A DNA stretch of 64,000 nt. Source: Shouchella rhizosphaerae. Lineage in GTDB: Bacteria > Bacillota > Bacilli > Bacillales > Bacillaceae_D. Below are positions 45,934 to 57,101 of the stretch, in pieces. The stretch spans positions 372,001 through 436,000 of the forward strand of contig NZ_FRBS01000001.1 in NCBI RefSeq assembly GCF_900142675.1. Direction: 5' to 3'. The position numbers and the translations under genes were made by a program. The notes beneath the pieces were generated by a model. That model saw only the letters and a list, made by a program, of their open reading frames with translations. It had not been told where the DNA came from and did not search any database. Position 1 is the stretch's first letter; every line of letters begins with the position of its first letter.

Positions 45934-47346
45934 ATGGAGTACCGGGTTGAACGAGACTTACTAGGAGAAAAACAAGTACCGAAACATGCTTATTATGGCA
46001 TCCAATCGCTGCGGGCAAAGGATAATTTTCCGATTACCGGCTATCCGCCCCACCCTGAACTTATTCGCGCTTTCGGCTATGTGAAAAAAGCGGCTGCCCT
46101 TGCAAACCGCGATGTCGGTGTACTGCGCCCCCACATTGCTGAAGCGATTATTAAGGCAAGCGATGAAGTAATTGAAGGGCGTTTGAATGATCATTTTATT
46201 GTCGATTCGATCCAAGGAGGCGCCGGCACGTCGTTTAATATGAATGCCAATGAAGTCATTGCTAACCGGGCGATTGAGATTCTTGGCGGCGAAAAAGGCG
46301 ATTATTTAAAAGTCAGTCCCAACACACACGTCAACATGGCCCAGTCTACCAATGATTCATTTCCGACGGCGATTCATATTGCCGCTTTAAATATGACAAA
46401 GGGCTTGACGGAAGAATTGCAGAAATTGATCAACGAAATGGAAGCGAAAGCCGAAGAATTTGACAGCGTCCTAAAAATGGGGCGGACCCACTTGCAAGAT
46501 GCAGTCCCTATTCGACTAGGGCAGGAATTTGGCTCGTACCGCAGAGTGCTAGCCCGTGATCTAAAACGGGTAAGCCGTTCGGCAGACCACCTCCACGACA
46601 TCAATATGGGTGCAACCGCTGTAGGAACGGGTTTGAACGCCAAACCGGAATACATTGAAAAAGTTGCAAAACATTTGGCTGACTTGACTGAGCTGCCGTT
46701 GAAAACGGCGGAGGATCTTGTCGATGCCACCCAAAATACAGATGCCTATACAGAGCTTTCTAGTTCGTTAAAAATTTTAGCTATTAATTTATCGAAAATC
46801 GCAAATGACTTACGTTTAATGAGCTCGGGCCCGCGGACCGGATTGAATGAAATCAATTTGCCACCGCGACAGCCGGGTTCATCGATCATGCCTGGAAAAG
46901 TAAATCCGGTTATGTGTGAAGTCATTAACCAGCTTTCTTTTCAAGTTATCGGCAATGACCATACGATCAGCCTTGCTTCAGAAGCGGGCCAACTTGAACT
47001 AAACGTGATGGAGCCTGTACTCGTTTTTAATTTATTGCAATCATTAACGGTGCTACAAAATGGTATGCGCGTCTTTAAAGATTACGCAATTGCCGGCATT
47101 ACCGCTAACGTGGAGCGATGCCGGGAACTTGTAGAACATAGCGTCGGTATTGTAACGGCAATCAATCCCCATGTCGGCTATGAAGTAGCTACTCGTGTAG
47201 CTAAAGAAGCAATTGAAACAGGGCGGCCGGTCCGGGAAATTTGCCTTGAACGGGGCATCCTTTCAGAGGAAGAATTGAATGAAATTCTTGATCCAAAAGA
47301 AATGACAAAACCCGGTATCGCGGGCTCCCGTTTTTTGCCGTTATAA
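45934..47346 (+). CDS. aspA: Aspartate ammonia-lyase
   Basis: A 470-residue member of the fumarase/aspartase superfamily, converting aspartate to fumarate and ammonia. The signature [12 protein letters not shown] is near residue 316, with TGLNAKPEYI in the middle and the aspartase-typical N terminus (ERDLLGEKQVP). The paralogous fumarase, fumC, is encoded at 55.7-57.1 kb. Separate fumarase and aspartase assignments rest on these N termini and lengths. Probably in one unit with yqgQ-glcK. Confidence 0.9.
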   Translation: MEYRVERDLLGEKQVPKHAYYGIQSLRAKDNFPITGYPPHPELIRAFGYVKKAAALANRDVGVLRPHIAEAIIKASDEVIEGRLNDHFIVDSIQGGAGTSFNMNANEVIANRAIEILGGEKGDYLKVSPNTHVNMAQSTNDSFPTAIHIAALNMTKGLTEELQKLINEMEAKAEEFDSVLKMGRTHLQDAVPIRLGQEFGSYRRVLARDLKRVSRSADHLHDINMGATAVGTGLNAKPEYIEKVAKHLADLTELPLKTAEDLVDATQNTDAYTELSSSLKILAINLSKIANDLRLMSSGPRTGLNEINLPPRQPGSSIMPGKVNPVMCEVINQLSFQVIGNDHTISLASEAGQLELNVMEPVLVFNLLQSLTVLQNGMRVFKDYAIAGITANVERCRELVEHSVGIVTAINPHVGYEVATRVAKEAIETGRPVREICLERGILSEEELNEILDPKEMTKPGIAGSRFLPL

Positions 47347-47407
47347 CAACGAAAGAGCGACTTTTGTTTTTGCAAATGGATCAATGTATGCGATAATGAT
47401 ATAGAAA

Positions 47408-47503
47408 GACTAGGGGTGCCTAATGAAGTTAGGCTGAGAATAAGAACGTATTTCTTTTACCCTAATAACCTGATCTGGGTGATGCCAGCGGAGGGAAGTC
47501 GGT
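47408..47503 (+). promoter_or_regulatory. TPP (THI-box) riboswitch
   Basis: The sensor is recognisable from its two conserved sides: ctaggggtgcc followed by ggctgagaataag (47410-47443), and ccctaataacctgatctgggtgatgccagcggagggaag (47460-47500; shown in pieces here as acctgatctgggtgatgcc and agcggagggaag). It binds thiamine pyrophosphate and controls thiE and the genes after it. A terminator hairpin at 47534 forms the expression platform. Confidence 0.95.
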
Positions 47504-47533
47504 TTGCAGTGATTGAATGACATGCTTGCATGT

Positions 47534-47562
47534 GGCCGAAGCTCCTCGCTTTGGCCTTTTTA
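47534..47562 (+). terminator. Riboswitch-controlled terminator before thiE
   Basis: A 9-bp stem (47534-47542 with 47548-47556) followed by ttttatttt, 31 bases after the riboswitch and 23 bases before thiE. TPP binding would allow this hairpin to form and stop transcription. Confidence 0.85.
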
Positions 47563-47584: not shown

Positions 47585-48214
47585 ATGAAGCCTTTTCGAC
47601 TTTACGCGATCACAGGAGAAGAATTCCATCCTGGACGCGATGTCGTAGAAGTGATGGAAGAAGCTATCCAAGGTGGGGTTGACATTATTCAGCTTCGTGA
47701 TAAAACGAGCAGCAAAAAGGCTGTGTTGGAAAAAGCCCGTAGGCTAAAAAAGCTTGCAGCTGATTATGGAATTCCGTTTATTGTCAATGACCATATCGAT
47801 GTCGCCCTTGCCGTCGACGCAAGCGGTGTCCATGTTGGACAAGATGATTTACCCCTTCCAGAAGTAAGAAAATTGCTGGGACCAGACAAAATCATTGGCG
47901 TTTCTACCCACAAGTTAGAGGAAGCGCTTGAAGCTGAAAAGAACGGAGCCGATTATATTGGCGTCGGTCCGATTTTTCCAACAAACAGCAAAGCGGATGT
48001 AGTAGACCCAGTTACAACGGCTTATATTCGCGAAGTAAAGGAACATGTGACGATTCCATTTGTGGCCATTGGCGGCATCAAACGCCATAATGTCCGTGAA
48101 GTGATCGAAGCGGGTGCTGAAGCCATTTGCGTTATAACCGAAATTGTTGCTGCCCGTGACGTAAAAGCAGCTAGTCAAGCGTTGCTTGCCGCGATGGAGG
48201 AGGCAAGTCAATGA
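47585..48214 (+). CDS. thiE: Thiamine-phosphate synthase
   Basis: A 209-residue TIM-barrel enzyme joining HMP-pyrophosphate and thiazole phosphate to thiamine phosphate. Key parts are IIQLRDKTSSKK near residue 35 (substrate loop), IVNDHIDVALA near 61 and GVGPIFPTNSK near 129. The residues fit ThiE; the aminotransferase-isomerase TenI, which looks similar, is the alternative. Start ATG 47585 with aaggaggg. First gene of the riboswitch-controlled operon and coupled to thiS by ATGA. Confidence 0.88.
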   Translation: MKPFRLYAITGEEFHPGRDVVEVMEEAIQGGVDIIQLRDKTSSKKAVLEKARRLKKLAADYGIPFIVNDHIDVALAVDASGVHVGQDDLPLPEVRKLLGPDKIIGVSTHKLEEALEAEKNGADYIGVGPIFPTNSKADVVDPVTTAYIREVKEHVTIPFVAIGGIKRHNVREVIEAGAEAICVITEIVAARDVKAASQALLAAMEEASQ

Positions 48215-48408
48215 GATTAGTCGTAAATGGTGAAGAACGAATTTCAGAAAGCACAACGCTGAGCGAACTAGTTTCTGAATTTGGCTTAGCGAGCCAACTA
48301 GTGGTGGCGGAAGTCAACGGGACGATTATTGACCGTGTTGACTGGGAGGCCACTTCTTTGAGTGAAGGAATGAAAATCGAGCTAGTCCATTTCGTAGGGG
48401 GAGGATAA
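48211..48408 (+). CDS. thiS: Sulfur carrier protein ThiS
   Basis: A 65-residue ubiquitin-like protein ending in GGG. ThiF adenylates its C-terminal glycine, which is then converted to a thiocarboxylate that donates sulfur to the thiazole ring. It overlaps thiE by four bases and is followed by thiG two bases after its stop. Confidence 0.93.
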
Positions 48409-48410
48409 AC

Positions 48411-49202
48411 ATGAAAAAAGCACCACTTGTCATTGGCGGAAAAACGCTCTCATCGCGGTTTTTCATTGGGACAGGCCGTTATCCAAACCCGGTTGTTCAA
48501 AATGAAACCATTAAAGCCTCCGGAGCGGAGGTTTTAACATTTGCCATTCGCCGTATTAACCTAGAACATCCTGATGAGGATGCAATTTTACAGCATTTAG
48601 AAGGGCGTACTTTTCAATACTTGCCAAATACATCAGGAGCGAACAATGCGGAAGAGGCAATCCGTATTGCTCGTTTGGCCCGAGCGGCTGGGCTGAGCGA
48701 TTGGATCAAAGTCGAAATTAGCGTATCTGAAAAAACGCTATTGCCTGATCCGGTCGAGACATTAAAAGCGACAGAAGCTTTAGCGAAAGAAGGCTTCACT
48801 GTATTGCCGTATACATCAGATGACCCAATTCTTTGCAAAAAACTTGAGGAAGTCGGCGCAGCCGCAGTTATGCCTGGGGCTTCTCCAATTGGCACAGGCC
48901 TTGGCATATTAAACCCGTATAACCTTGGCGTCATTGTCGAGGAAGCTTCTGTACCGATTATTGTGGATGCTGGTCTCGGTTCTGCAAGCGATGTTGCCAA
49001 GGCAATGGAATTAGGGGCAGATGGAGTATTAATGAATACGGCAGTAGCTAAAGCAAAGGATCCAGTAAAGATGGCGCTGGCAATGAAGCAAGCGATTGAA
49101 GCCGGTTTGCTGTCCTACGAAGCAGGGCGCATTCCGATGAAGCGCTATGCGACAGCAAGCAGCCAGCTTGACCATTTATTGTCCAGTCACAGTAAGGGGT
49201 AG
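48411..49202 (+). CDS. thiG: Thiazole synthase
   Basis: A 263-residue TIM-barrel enzyme that makes the thiazole phosphate of thiamine from DXP, dehydroglycine and ThiS-thiocarboxylate. Conserved parts are IGTGRYPNP near residue 19, the [13 protein letters not shown] catalytic loop and [13 protein letters not shown] near 156. Shine-Dalgarno gggggagg overlaps the thiS end, so translation is closely coupled. Confidence 0.95.
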
Positions 49203-49207
49203 TCAAA

Positions 49208-50314
49208 ATGGAGCATACAATTGTTTTAGGAGGCGGCGTTATCGGGCTGTCTGTTGCTTTTCAGTTAGCAATGGACGGCAAGACCGTTTCTGTCCTAGAA
49301 ATAAACACATGCGGCGGGCAGGCATCTGGTGCAGCTGCAGGCATGCTTGCCCCGTACTCAGAAATTAGCGAGGATCCAGATGATTTCTTTCGCCTTTGTT
49401 TAGCAAGTTTGCGCGCTTTTAAAGAATGGCAAGCATCCGTAAAACAAGAGTCAGGCATGACGTTTGAATTTACAGAATCAGGGAGTCTTCATTGTGTGTA
49501 TCATGAAGCTGATTTGTTGTCACTTGCCACTAGAAAAGCATGGCAAGAGGAATTTGGTGCCAAAGTCGACGTATTGACACGCGAAGAGTTAAAGAAAAAA
49601 GAGCCTGAGCTTGCCGAAGACATAATTGGTGCGATCCACTACCCAGAAGAAGCTCATGTCTATGCGCCTGATTATGTAAAGGCGTTGCAACAGGCTTGCA
49701 GAAATCGCGGCGTCCACATTTATGAGCAGCTCAAACACGTTTCGCTCGTAAAAACAGAGCCCCACATCGAGCTACAGAGCGCTTCAGGGCAGCGTTTCAC
49801 AGCAGACCAGCTCGTTGTGGCGACAGGTGCATGGGCGAAAGAGCTAGAAAGCCAGCTTGGCTTGAACTTGCCCATTTACCCAATAAGAGGGCAAATTTGT
49901 GCTTATAACATTGAACCAGGCCGTATTCGCCACATTTTGTACACAAGCCAAGGGTATCTTGTCCCAAAAGCAAATGGCACACTTGTTAATGGCGCTTCAG
50001 AAGATATTGCTGGCTTTCAAACAGAAATTACCGACAAGGGCATTCGCCGTCTAACAAATTGGAACCATAAGATAGTGCCCTTTTTAGCTGAACTCACGCC
50101 GTTTCATAAATGGGCTGGCTTAAGGCCGGCGACACAAGACGGTTATCCGCTTATCGGTTTTCTTCGCAACCATCCCCGCGTTTTTATGGCTTGTGGCCAT
50201 TACCGGAACGGCATTTTATTAAGCGCGATTACGGCAAAAGTGGCGAGTGCGCAGTTGGCTGGGCAGAAGCCGCCTGTACCAATCGCCCTTTTTGATCCAG
50301 ACCGTTTTTCGTAG
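49208..50314 (+). CDS. thiO: Glycine oxidase ThiO
   Basis: A 368-residue FAD enzyme of the D-amino-acid-oxidase family that oxidises glycine to the dehydroglycine used by ThiG. The FAD loop LGGGVIGLSVAFQLA is at about residues 6-20, ASGAAAGMLAPYSE near 41, and the C-terminal GLRPATQDGYPLIG near 306. Six bases after thiG. This aerobic route replaces the ThiH route of other bacteria. Confidence 0.93.
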   Translation: MEHTIVLGGGVIGLSVAFQLAMDGKTVSVLEINTCGGQASGAAAGMLAPYSEISEDPDDFFRLCLASLRAFKEWQASVKQESGMTFEFTESGSLHCVYHEADLLSLATRKAWQEEFGAKVDVLTREELKKKEPELAEDIIGAIHYPEEAHVYAPDYVKALQQACRNRGVHIYEQLKHVSLVKTEPHIELQSASGQRFTADQLVVATGAWAKELESQLGLNLPIYPIRGQICAYNIEPGRIRHILYTSQGYLVPKANGTLVNGASEDIAGFQTEITDKGIRRLTNWNHKIVPFLAELTPFHKWAGLRPATQDGYPLIGFLRNHPRVFMACGHYRNGILLSAITAKVASAQLAGQKPPVPIALFDPDRFS

Positions 50315-50334
50315 TCAGAGAAGGAGGCGTACGA

Positions 50335-51153
50335 ATGCCCATTCCAACAGTCCTCTCCGTTGCTGGTTCTGATTCCAGCGGCGGTGCTGGCATTCAAGCA
50401 GACATAAAAACGTGTCAAGAGCTTGGCGTTTATGCTGCTACTGCCATTACTGCTATTACAGCCCAAAATACAACTGGCGTACAATCGTGGCAAGGACTTG
50501 ACGCTTCACTCGTACGGGACCAAATCGAAGCAGTATTAAGTGATATCGGAGTGCATGTCATCAAGACAGGCATGTTGGTCAATGCAGACATTGTCACAAC
50601 GGTGGCTGAATTGGCAAATACGTATCGAGTAGCTAACATTGTCGTTGATCCCGTCATGGCCTCGACAAGTGGAACAGCGCTTCTTTCGGCAGAAGGCCAA
50701 CAGGTACTTGTACAGAAGCTTTTGCCACTTGCGACTGTTTTTACGCCTAATTTGCCTGAAACGGCCATGCTTCTTAATAAACCAGAATGTAAAACCGTTG
50801 CTGAAATGAAAGCAGCCGCGGTACAATTGCATAAAATGGGGCCTAAGCTAGTCATTTTGAAAGGCGGCCATTTGCGACAAGGGGAAGCCATTGATTTATG
50901 CTACGATGGCCAAGCTTTCTTTGAGTTAAAGGCAAAACGGCTAGACAGAAAGCATACTCACGGGACTGGTTGTACGTTTGCTTCAGCGATAGCAGCAGAA
51001 CTCGCAAAAGGGGCCAAGCCAATCGAAGCAGCTAAAAAAGCGAAAGCATATGTGACGGCCGCGATTTCGGAAGGAATCCCATTAGGAGCCGGAATCGGCC
51101 CGACGGATCATGCTGCTTATCGCCGCCTTGGCCAAGAAGGGGGTTGCAATTGA
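50335..51153 (+). CDS. thiD: HMP kinase / HMP-phosphate kinase
   Basis: A 272-residue ribokinase-fold kinase phosphorylating hydroxymethylpyrimidine and its monophosphate. The SVAGSDSSGGAGIQADIKT start (given as GSDSSGGAGIQADI) and HTHGTGCTFASAIAAEL near residue 207 identify it. Pyridoxal kinase activity of some ThiD paralogues is a possibility. It overlaps the next gene at TTGA. Confidence 0.92.
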   Translation: MPIPTVLSVAGSDSSGGAGIQADIKTCQELGVYAATAITAITAQNTTGVQSWQGLDASLVRDQIEAVLSDIGVHVIKTGMLVNADIVTTVAELANTYRVANIVVDPVMASTSGTALLSAEGQQVLVQKLLPLATVFTPNLPETAMLLNKPECKTVAEMKAAAVQLHKMGPKLVILKGGHLRQGEAIDLCYDGQAFFELKAKRLDRKHTHGTGCTFASAIAAELAKGAKPIEAAKKAKAYVTAAISEGIPLGAGIGPTDHAAYRRLGQEGGCN

Positions 51154-51707
51154 GAAAGCATATAGTCGTATTAATATTGCCAGTCATTTTAATGATCGCG
51201 ATCGCTTTGAGCGGTATTTATTACTTGAATCAAGAAGAAACGATGACAAATGAACAGCTGAAAGCTGAAATTGAACTGGTAGCTGAACGAGGAGAAGACG
51301 GTACATTGTTACTTGAATGGAGCTGGCCGCAAATGCCAGCAGAAGGCATGTATGGAACCGACTATATTGGCATTGCGTTTACTGGGGCAGACGAAGTGGA
51401 AGTTGGCGAGGCAGTCCTTGATACGGAAGAACAACATCGCTATATAGGCGAGCGTGTCGATAACGGTATCATTTTTGCATATCCGACGGAAATGGCAGAA
51501 CATCAAAGCATTGGCACGAAGGGCACAATTGTCCAACCATTGCCTGCTTCTGCGGACAACATCACCATTTCTGTCCTACATACGTGGACGAACCATGAAG
51601 CATTGACGATGGAAGACGCCACTTTTGAAGCACCTGCTTTTGGTAGCGCCAAAAATGTTCAGCATTGGGTAAAAACGGTGGAATTAGGTGAGTTGCTTGC
51701 GAATTAG
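51150..51707 (+). CDS. Unknown membrane-anchored protein in the thiamine operon
   Basis: A 185-residue protein with a single N-terminal hydrophobic segment (about residues 4-27) followed by a soluble domain with an acidic surface. I recognise no family. TTG 51150 overlaps the thiD stop (TTGA) and aaggggg lies 6 bases upstream; TTG 51144 is an alternative. It is translationally linked to thiD on one side and to the DUF1385 gene on the other, so it belongs to the riboswitch operon by position. Its role is unknown. Confidence 0.7.
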   Translation: MRKHIVVLILPVILMIAIALSGIYYLNQEETMTNEQLKAEIELVAERGEDGTLLLEWSWPQMPAEGMYGTDYIGIAFTGADEVEVGEAVLDTEEQHRYIGERVDNGIIFAYPTEMAEHQSIGTKGTIVQPLPASADNITISVLHTWTNHEALTMEDATFEAPAFGSAKNVQHWVKTVELGELLAN

Positions 51708-52758
51708 CGGCATGTCGTTTAATGCGGGGAATTTTTACAGCGGGGCAGGCTTTTTGGCTTGTGCTTACTATGATGAACAGGGCAAGCTGCATTCATGGGC
51801 AAAGCCTGCCGGAATGCAAGCCTATTTACAAGCTGGCAAACTGATTGTAAAAACAATGCCATTTCGATTTGTCGCACTCATTATCGCTCTGCTGTGTTTG
51901 ATTATTGTGCCCAAAATCATTCCAACCAGCTGGAATGGATTGCCTGTTTATACGTTCTTTTATTTATTGTTTGCCGGGCATTTTCTATTTCCTGAGCCGT
52001 TAAAAAAGTACCATGGCGCAGAACATAAAGTGTTTAGTGCAAAAGGGCGCATTTGTACAGAACGGTTACAGGCGATAAAAAGAGCGGATATTCGCAATCG
52101 TGGTTGTTCCACCGGGCTAGTTGTCGTTTATTTTTTAAGTGTCTTCCTTCTAAGTGGAAGCCTTTCTTTGTTCACGCCATTTCAACAAGCGCTAATGGTT
52201 TCTTCTTATGCGGCTCTGGCTGTCGTGGCCCTTTATCAACTTTTTCATCGCAAGCCGTGGCTAAAAGGGCTTGAAAAGAGCGTTTTAGTTCTTTCTTACT
52301 GGTTGCAACTTCATGTGACAACGAAAGAGCCTGACGAGAACCATCTTCAGTGCGCGATTTCCGCCTATCAACAGTTAGGCTATGTGGCTTTTCCAGAAAA
52401 CATAAAAAAGCGGAGGCTTCCGCGAAAGGAGAACAAGGGAATGGCAATTGCAGACGTATCGATCATTCCAATTGGTACTTCCTCGACAAGCGTTAGCGCT
52501 TATGTAGCATATATCCAACAAGTGCTTGACCACTATGAGAAAGAAAAGCAAATCCGTTACGAGCTTACGCCTATGAGCACGTTGATTGAGGCAGAGCTGC
52601 CTGTGTTGTTTGAAGTGATCCAGAAAATCCATGAAGCGCCGTTTGAACAAGGAGCCTTGAGGACGGCAACGTCGATTCGCATTGACGACCGCCGCGATCA
52701 GCCTTTAACGATGGACGGAAAACGTAAATCTGTGCAAGAGAAGCGAATAGAACAATAG
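51688..52758 (+). CDS. DUF1385 (YqhQ-like) membrane protein fused to a thiamine-binding YqgV domain
   Basis: A 356-residue product. Residues 1-250 resemble DUF1385/YqhQ, with four or so membrane segments and the markers YHGAEHKVFSAKG near residue 108 and WLQLHVTTKEPDENHL near 208. Residues 252-356 (MAIADVSIIPIGTSSTSVSAYV start) are a complete MTH1187/YqgV-type thiamine-binding domain. They are in one frame. An internal ATG at 52441 has aaaggag 9 bases upstream, so a free YqgV protein may also be made. Start GTG 51688 overlaps the previous gene by 20 bases; ATG 51712 is possible. The end of the thiamine operon fits the ligand. Confidence 0.75.
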   Translation: MSCLRISGMSFNAGNFYSGAGFLACAYYDEQGKLHSWAKPAGMQAYLQAGKLIVKTMPFRFVALIIALLCLIIVPKIIPTSWNGLPVYTFFYLLFAGHFLFPEPLKKYHGAEHKVFSAKGRICTERLQAIKRADIRNRGCSTGLVVVYFLSVFLLSGSLSLFTPFQQALMVSSYAALAVVALYQLFHRKPWLKGLEKSVLVLSYWLQLHVTTKEPDENHLQCAISAYQQLGYVAFPENIKKRRLPRKENKGMAIADVSIIPIGTSSTSVSAYVAYIQQVLDHYEKEKQIRYELTPMSTLIEAELPVLFEVIQKIHEAPFEQGALRTATSIRIDDRRDQPLTMDGKRKSVQEKRIEQ

Positions 52759-55712: not shown

Positions 55713-57101
55713 TTATTTTGGAGCAATCATTTCCTTTGGTACTACATATTCATCAAATTGCTCTTCAGTCAGCAACCCTGACTCAATAGCAGCTTCTTTA
55801 AGTGTTGTGTTTTCAGCATGTGCTTTTTTCGCAATTTTCGCGGCATTTTCGTAGCCGATGTGCGGGTTTAGAGCAGTTACAAGCATAAGGGATTCATTTA
55901 GCAATTGCGTCATTTTTTCTTCATCTGCTTTTAAGCCAACTAAACATTTGTGGCGGAAGTTGTTGAGCCCGTCTGCAAGAAGGCGCATCGATTGAAGGAC
56001 GTTGTAAATAATGACTGGTTTAAATACATTTAGCTGAAAATGGCCTTGGCTAGCAGCAAAGCCGACTGCTGCATCGTTCCCCATAACTTGGGCGGCTACC
56101 ATCGTTAACGCTTCACTTTGTGTCGGATTGACTTTGCCAGGCATAATCGAGCTTCCTGGTTCATTGGCCGGAATCAACACTTCGCCAATGCCACAACGTG
56201 GCCCACTTGCAAGCAAGCGAATGTCGTTTGCAATTTTAAATGCATCAGCAGCAAGTGCTTTCAGTGCGCCATGAAAATGGACAAGCTCGTCATGGCTTGT
56301 CAAGCCATGAAAAAAGTTTTCTGATGCTTTAAAAGCAACGCCTGTTTGGTTTGTAAGTTGAGCAGAAACTTCTTTGCTAAAACCAATTGGCGCGTTTAAG
56401 CCAGTGCCAACAGCGGTTCCGCCGATCGTAAGAGAACGTACATGTTCAAGTGCTTCGCTAACCAGTGTTTCGCATGTTTGCAGCATATGTTTCCAACCGC
56501 TAATTTCTTGCCCAAATGTGAGCGGAGTCGCATCTTGCAAGTGTGTACGGCCAATTTTCACAACATCCGCAAAGGCCTCTTCTTTTTCAGCAAGTGTGTC
56601 TTTGAAGGCACGAATCGCTGGCAGGAGGTTTTCTTCCGCAAAAACGACAGTAGCGACATGCATTGCAGTTGGAAATGTATCGTTTGAACTTTGTGAGTGG
56701 TTGACATCGTCGTTTGGATGGACACGAACATCATGATGTCCATTTTCATCCAAGTATTGGTTCGCTAAGTAGGCAAGCACTTCATTCATATTCATGTTAG
56801 ACTGCGTGCCGCTGCCTGTTTGCCAGACAACTAAAGGGAAATGATCTTCGAGTCCGCCTTCAATAACTTTATCGGCTGCATATGTAATCGCTTCAACTTT
56901 GCGAGAATCGAGTCCTTTTAAGCGCCCATTGACAATGGCTGCAGCTTTCTTCAAGTGGGCGAAGGCAAGAACCACTTCAAAAGGAATTTTTTCGGTGCCA
57001 ATTTTAAAGTTTTCCAGGCTACGCTGTGTTTGTGCACCCCAAAAACGGTCTGCTGGCACTTCGATTTCGCCGATTGTATCTCTTTCTGTACGCGTTTCCA
57101 T
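55713..57101 (-). CDS. fumC: Fumarate hydratase class II
   Basis: A 462-residue fumarase (citG of B. subtilis) hydrating fumarate to malate in the TCA cycle. The signature [16 protein letters not shown] is near residue 316; the catalytic-site segments [13 protein letters not shown] (near 96) and [10 protein letters not shown] (near 138) are complete. It is transcribed alone on the minus strand. The paralogue aspA lies at 45.9 kb. Confidence 0.95.

Follow-up and report, generated by a model that had tools for sequence, protein, structure and literature searches.

A fused DUF1385–thiamine-binding protein gene of Shouchella and related genera carries conserved internal start signals

In the window, the whole 64,000-nucleotide stretch of the Shouchella rhizosphaerae genome analysed here, the last gene of a thiamine operon joins a short DUF1385 membrane domain in frame to a thiamine-binding domain (TBP), and a start codon and a Shine-Dalgarno (SD) motif at the junction are conserved among fused genes of related bacteria. 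We consider it probable that the fused gene has retained an internal start and gives rise to both a tethered and a free thiamine-binding product, which would combine in a mixed membrane-attached complex.

A membrane domain and a thiamine-binding domain in one frame

The plus-strand frame 51688–52758 is free of stops and comprises 356 codons counted from GTG 51688. Pfam searches place DUF1385 at residues 47–229 (E 9.1e-13) and Thiamine_BP at residues 255–350 (E 1.4e-30) of this same frame, and NCBIfam assigns the C-terminal part to TIGR00106, the MTH1187 family of thiamine-binding proteins (111.2 bits, cut-off 54.7). The DUF1385 profile (PF07136) scores 48.5 bits with the window protein, against a gathering cut-off of 22.1, and matches all 19 members of our alignment of short DUF1385 proteins (A1); TIGR00106 matches 50 of the 60 members of a second alignment (A2), the other ten being DUF1385-only rows. 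The frame is a genuine in-frame fusion of DUF1385 with a TBP, as the initial annotation had it.

The real start of the fused gene is probably TTG 51697, giving 353 aa (51697–52758, plus strand), rather than GTG 51688. The TTG is favoured because its equivalent is kept in eight of nine Shouchella-group loci compared, the ninth (L036) having ATG there, and because two split loci of this group (L037 and L045) lack the GTG and carry GGAGG upstream of the TTG. From this start, the gene would encode a short DUF1385 domain (51703–52377), composed of N-terminal strands, four predicted transmembrane segments and C-terminal helices, as judged from PF07136, invariant residues, charge and the structural model; a linker (52378–52440), rich in K, R and E, which carries the internal ribosome-binding site; and an MTH1187/YqgV-type TBP (52441–52758), for which a free product of 105 aa is predicted from ATG 52441, all on the plus strand.

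The AlphaFold2 model of the fusion has a pLDDT of 92.5, with lower confidence in the linker (68–69 at model residues 231–250). Positive charges cluster in the N-terminus, in a loop containing the HxAEHK...N-R-x-C-S-T motif and in the C-terminus, while loops 75–82 and 157–160 are nearly charge-free. Because of this clustering, a topology of four membrane segments is likely, with both termini, the HxAEHK loop and the TBP on the cytoplasmic side. The TBP resembles MTH1187 (1LXN) with 42% identity, a TM score (target) of 0.85 and a Z of 13.7 (rmsd 2.2 over 98 residues); further fold matches are MJ1052, YBL001c and TM0486, and YkoF (1SBR/1S99) is more distant and low in the lists. For the DUF1385 part, no PDB match was found by sequence, and the fold searches, in which the membrane domain was covered within the whole model and the TBP filled the lists, returned no fold for it.

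The DUF1385 part shares the HxAEHK motif and the Cys-containing loop with YqhQ (PF07136) and is not a canonical YqhQ by length and score. Specifically, canonical YqhQ is a single-domain protein of about 315 aa (intact frames 312–372 aa) that scores 256.8–279 bits, whereas the window copy, a domain of about 246 aa, scores 48.9 bits. The gap in score to A1 (140 bits or more versus under 40) sets the short form apart as a separate subfamily. A canonical YqhQ match was seen in none of the 13 genomes of the window's genus (G000–G012), and several other fusion-carrying genera (g5, g6 and g7) likewise show none.

Distribution, history and surroundings of the fusion

A whole-protein search of 60 genomes, including the window's own, gave some match in 54, and both domains as one full frame in 31, as counted from the listing. 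In two further genomes (G006 and G027), a frame break interrupts the DUF1385 part of the fusion. Four genomes of the window's genus carry two separate genes; in G003 the split is a stop just before the TBP start, while in G005, G008 and G012 DUF1385 ends in another frame around that start. The lone stop in G023, G026 and G029 falls upstream of the DUF1385 start. In a named collection, which overlaps the 60-genome set (many loci apparently come from the same genomes) and is not independent of it, the short DUF1385 turned up at 85 loci, of which 80 were retained. The same domain pair, which the initial annotation had proposed to look for elsewhere, occurs in 54 of the 80 and forms one frame in 52 of those 54, across more than ten genera; this count includes L147 despite a frame break in its DUF1385 part, and the two remaining loci are L123 (Sinobaca), which is split, and L107, which has a frame break inside DUF1385.

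The carriers of the fusion are mostly salt- and alkali-loving Bacillus relatives. Among the named genomes listed, Shouchella clausii and S. tritolerans come closest (88% identity in the DUF1385 part), and fused proteins range down to 36% identity to the window protein. By profile search, 26 of the 80 loci are free of TBP, namely those of Brevibacillus, Ammoniphilus and Tumebacillus, a record titled Anoxybacillus that groups among Brevibacillus on the DUF1385 tree, and L138, a Halalkalibacterium fragment at a contig end. Among the Brevibacillus loci, the stand-alone short DUF1385 gene of L122, L127, L129, L131 and L135 lies 1.1–2.8 kb upstream of a class B RNase P RNA gene, and this RNA was found downstream in five of the seven TBP-free loci scanned.

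On a tree of 78 DUF1385 parts, built by a quick method and rooted on the TBP-free rows, three changes are needed; we interpret them as a single fusion with two subsequent splits, in the four Shouchella genomes and in Sinobaca. Nine near-copy, contig-end or frame-broken loci were left out of the tree (L074, L092, L107, L137, L138, L139, L143, L146 and L147). Three rows have long branches (L123, 2.52; L140, 1.99; L149, 1.44), and the placement of Sinobaca is therefore less sure. The initial annotation had allowed that relatives might have two genes and this strain a unique error; the separate-gene cases are instead derived on the tree, and a strain-specific error or frameshift is ruled out by the 60-genome search together with the 52 of 54 named loci that are fused.

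In the window, the fusion ends a same-strand run of overlapping or closely spaced genes (thiE-thiS-thiG-thiO-thiD-p187-fusion) behind a TPP riboswitch. The aptamer (47402–47513, plus strand; Rfam RF00059, 71.6 bits, E 4.1e-12) is followed by a terminator-like hairpin with a T tail (47534–47556, plus strand), after which the plus strand has only weak terminator-like sites. The genes thiE to thiD occupy 47585–51153 on the plus strand (Pfam TMP-TENI, ThiG, DAO and Phos_pyr_kin); thiE starts at ATG 47585 as read by eye (the mechanical ORF starts from 47513), thiS was read by eye from its frame (48211–48408, plus strand), and the order thiE, thiG, thiO, thiD is kept in relatives. A promoter-like site (9 of 12) at 51150–51178, just before p187, makes separate transcription of p187 and the fusion possible. 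Two genes of the fumarase/aspartase family, about 40% identical, flank the operon (45934–47346, plus strand; 55713–57101, minus strand).

A conserved upstream partner of the fusion, p187, was absent from the initial annotation. This gene (51144–51707, plus strand), which, if it begins at TTG 51144, overlaps the thiD end, encodes a membrane-anchored and probably extracytoplasmic protein and precedes the fusion in 47 of the 52 fused loci; it was not found in L096 (cut by a contig end), L103, L108, L115 and L121. Its AlphaFold2 model (pLDDT 93.4) consists of a helix at residues 7–30 followed by a beta-rich domain. The window protein matches no Pfam family at E up to 0.01 (a weak DUF7365 row has E 0.17), the weak Pfam rows of the family each occur in one of 45 members, and the fold search, for which Foldseek was also run, gave a weak resemblance to adhesins, pilins and adaptins (Z at most 8.5) and no convincing relative. 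We rejected these weak matches as a guide to function and treat the domain as a generic beta sandwich.

The placement of the fusion at the end of a riboswitch-controlled thiamine operon, described in the initial annotation, is correct for the window and fails as a general rule. Genes of the thi pathway lie within the flank of 31 of the 52 fused loci and were not seen in the fetched flank of the other 21, two of which (L081 and L096) are cut by contig ends; an Rfam scan of 11 of these 21 detected no TPP riboswitch. Across the loci compared, the thiamine-operon link thus belongs to a subset of the fusions, and it is in the Shouchella/Halalkalibacter group that the module sits behind the thi operon. 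In the thi-free fused loci compared, the usual order is glucokinase, then aspartase, yqgU-like or FetAB genes, then p187, the fusion, and an MBL hydrolase or comGA. Parts of this neighbourhood recur in four of five solo TBP loci of other families (L066, L068, L069 and L070, but not L067), and L066 and L068 show glcK, a yqgU-like gene, TBP and an MBL hydrolase (glcK and ComGA by NCBIfam); we take the neighbours and solo TBP genes to be yqgU, yqgV and yqgX. Since the fusion shares its neighbourhood with solo TBP loci, it most likely arose at the ancestral yqgV locus, growing on yqgV, with the thi operon beside it in one group.

A FetAB-like ABC pair stands just before p187 or the fused gene in L076 (4791–6260), L083 (4830–6322), L097 (4930–6390), L103, L106 and L112. 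It also precedes the solo TBP gene in L069, and this neighbour may predate the fusion. In several genera, thiD and p187 are separated by an insert that had been guessed to be thiC; L083, from Alkalihalophilus pseudofirmus OF4, instead shows the FetAB-like pair, both proteins of which score below the NCBIfam cut-offs.

Start signals at the domain junction

The internal ATG 52441 with its own aaaggag, pointed out in the initial annotation, is present in the window, with AAAGGAG at 52425–52431 (plus strand) nine bases before the ATG, and both motif and start codon prove to be conserved among the fused genes. In the codon alignment, which like the SD-motif counts omits L147 and L107, the first TBP codon is a start codon in all 54 fused genes (ATG in 46, TTG in 7, GTG in 1; over the 52 fused loci, 44, 7 and 1). 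Eight genes depart from ATG, which takes eight changes on the tree, all of them to other start codons, whereas at two other variable Met columns used as controls (residues 57 and 342) a start codon occurs in 2 of 18 non-Met rows (Fisher p 2.9e-5, with rows that share ancestry and are not independent). An SD-like core precedes the TBP codon in 54 of 54 genes, as AAGGAGG in 29, AAGGAG in 13 and weaker forms in 12, which a permissive pattern list could pick up by chance. The spacing is eight bases in 36 genes and nine in 12 (8–9 bases in 48 of 54), and the reading frame of the motif varies. Where the genes are split, a comparable motif precedes TBP, whose start position is unchanged.

To gauge how far the protein sequence accounts for the motif, codons were redrawn for the same six residues and the binding energy to the 16S tail was compared. 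The observed energy lies under the mean of this synonymous null in all 52 loci, by 5.8 kcal/mol on average. A gene-wide scan covered 30 genomes, with the four split ones and the frame-broken L047 and L049 set aside. Once synonymous codon choice is corrected for, top rank among its 342 windows goes to the one at the junction (residue 252; −5.88 kcal/mol, between-window standard deviation 0.78), and its neighbours hold the next six ranks; by raw energy, the window one codon upstream comes first and the junction window second. Locus by locus, significance is modest (a median p of 0.0485 with 16 of 32 values below 0.05, and a median of 0.068 in a second run), and the strength of the SD evidence therefore rests in the agreement across loci. 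By these comparisons, conservation of the start codon and SD motif exceeds what coding for the long protein would require.

We do not count weak RNA folding at the junction as evidence for a start, because base composition accounts for it: the junction is less structured than the gene average in 48 of 54 genes, and weaker than composition-matched shuffles in 34 of 54, with a mean difference of 0.22 kcal/mol. Just before the internal SD motif, the minus strand of the window has a small terminator-like hairpin with a run of T's behind it (52410–52423), whose letters recur only in L031–L033 among the loci compared.

From the conservation of its start signals, the gene most likely makes two products, a membrane-tethered and a free TBP. 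If only the fusion were made, the SD-like stretch and the Met would be relics of the yqgV start or a ribosome pause site between the membrane and soluble domains. The gene is indeed a real fusion, and its K/E-rich linker favours AAGGAGG by chance, with an amino-acid-matched null that is itself at about −6 kcal/mol on average. However, motif and start codon survive down to the most divergent fused proteins while the linker residues around them change, every codon change retains a start codon, and a pause site needs no start codon 8–9 bases downstream, all of which makes this reading very unlikely. It is unlikely, too, that the long chain is a by-product, with two proteins as the functional unit and the fused chain cleaved in the linker or of little weight. 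Two independent splits have been tolerated, and model confidence drops in the linker, as it does in flexible linkers, consistent with such a by-product; but in 52 of 54 loci DUF1385 has no stop of its own before the TBP end, and every full chain carries the TBP unless it is cleaved.

A possible thiamine-binding membrane complex

The preferred reading, with tethered and free products, suggests the following history and architecture. An upstream short-DUF1385 gene would have joined in frame to an ancestral cytosolic yqgV of the MTH1187 type, which retained its ribosome-binding site and start codon after the fusion. In the long product, the TBP would hang on the cytoplasmic face of the four-helix DUF1385 membrane domain, while internal initiation would supply the free thiamine-binding protein. 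MTH1187-type proteins form oligomers, and mixed assemblies of tethered and free chains are therefore to be expected; free chains would probably assemble on fewer tethered ones, so that the internal start would set the subunit ratio of the membrane-attached complex, to which p187 may add an outward-facing domain. We guess that this complex acts at the membrane in sensing or handling thiamine or a precursor, and in the window the module would be under TPP control, judging from its place downstream of the riboswitch. Taken as a whole, such an undescribed complex, with p187 outside, the short DUF1385 in the membrane, tethered and free TBP inside and a ratio set by the internal start, is a tentative possibility.

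A role of the fusion as a thiamine sensor or transporter is plausible as a prediction. In its transporter form, which is compatible with the two-product reading, DUF1385 would be the permease for thiamine or a precursor and the TBP its cytosolic ligand-binding gate. The TPP-riboswitch operon of the window and the family name point this way, and so does the link to YkoF, a related thiamine-binding fold that Bacillus subtilis encodes with YkoEDC: in the ykoEDC-like set of the window's genome, which is TPP-controlled, no ykoF was seen in the 8.5 kb inspected. The window's genome contains five TPP riboswitches; the other four adjoin TenA, an M20 peptidase-type gene with TenA, a ThiD-like kinase, and an ABC_cobalt/ABC/CbiQ set (G000:C4:606629; L167 714–3661) that reads as a YkoEDC ECF transporter. 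Given this TPP-controlled set, however, thiamine uptake need not depend on the fusion protein; moreover, adjacent thi genes are not a constant feature of the fused loci, and no transporter fold was matched in searches that covered the membrane domain as part of the whole model. We regard the transporter reading as rather doubtful. Elsewhere in the genome, a second, more distant solo Thiamine_BP protein (G000:C9:361973; L168 4956–5234) lies beside a gene that by eye resembles a chromate transporter.

In Bacillus subtilis, YkoF is encoded together with YkoEDC (ykoFEDC). There, as here, a thiamine-binding protein of related fold is tied to a TPP-controlled membrane system, but YkoF is a separate protein that serves an ECF transporter. 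The MTH1187/YqgV proteins (TIGR00106, PF01910; 1LXN, and 1VK8 for TM0486) have the same fold and profile as the TBP, and the fusion occupies the place of the solo TBP gene; the solved proteins are free, whereas the TBP here is attached to a membrane domain and, probably, also produced in free form. YqgV/DUF77 has been listed as a possible thiamine-binding protein (PMC6393860). For the internal start, a parallel is Cas11b, where an internal Met in the cas8b frame gives a small protein identical to the C-terminal part (PMC11899642). In the fusion, one product would instead be membrane-anchored and the ligand is probably thiamine; we claim no evolutionary relation.

A fused gene with an internal start is a known class; in the literature searched we met neither this family nor its spread or partner gene. 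Specifically, among papers on DUF1385, YqhQ, MTH1187/YkoF, YqgV, TM0486 and internal initiation, no title or start of an abstract shows the fusion or its internal start. DUF1385 is common in Bacilli (181 of 299 genomes match the short-form alignment, most of them weakly) yet scarcely named in that literature. The occurrence of the fusion across genera ties DUF1385 to a small-molecule-binding domain and suggests a testable ligand; if the complex proposed above is real, this would be the first ligand for a DUF1385 protein known to us. The conserved internal start also provides a clean example from nature in which a fused gene seemingly still makes its free part, and may help to address why internal starts persist in gene fusions.
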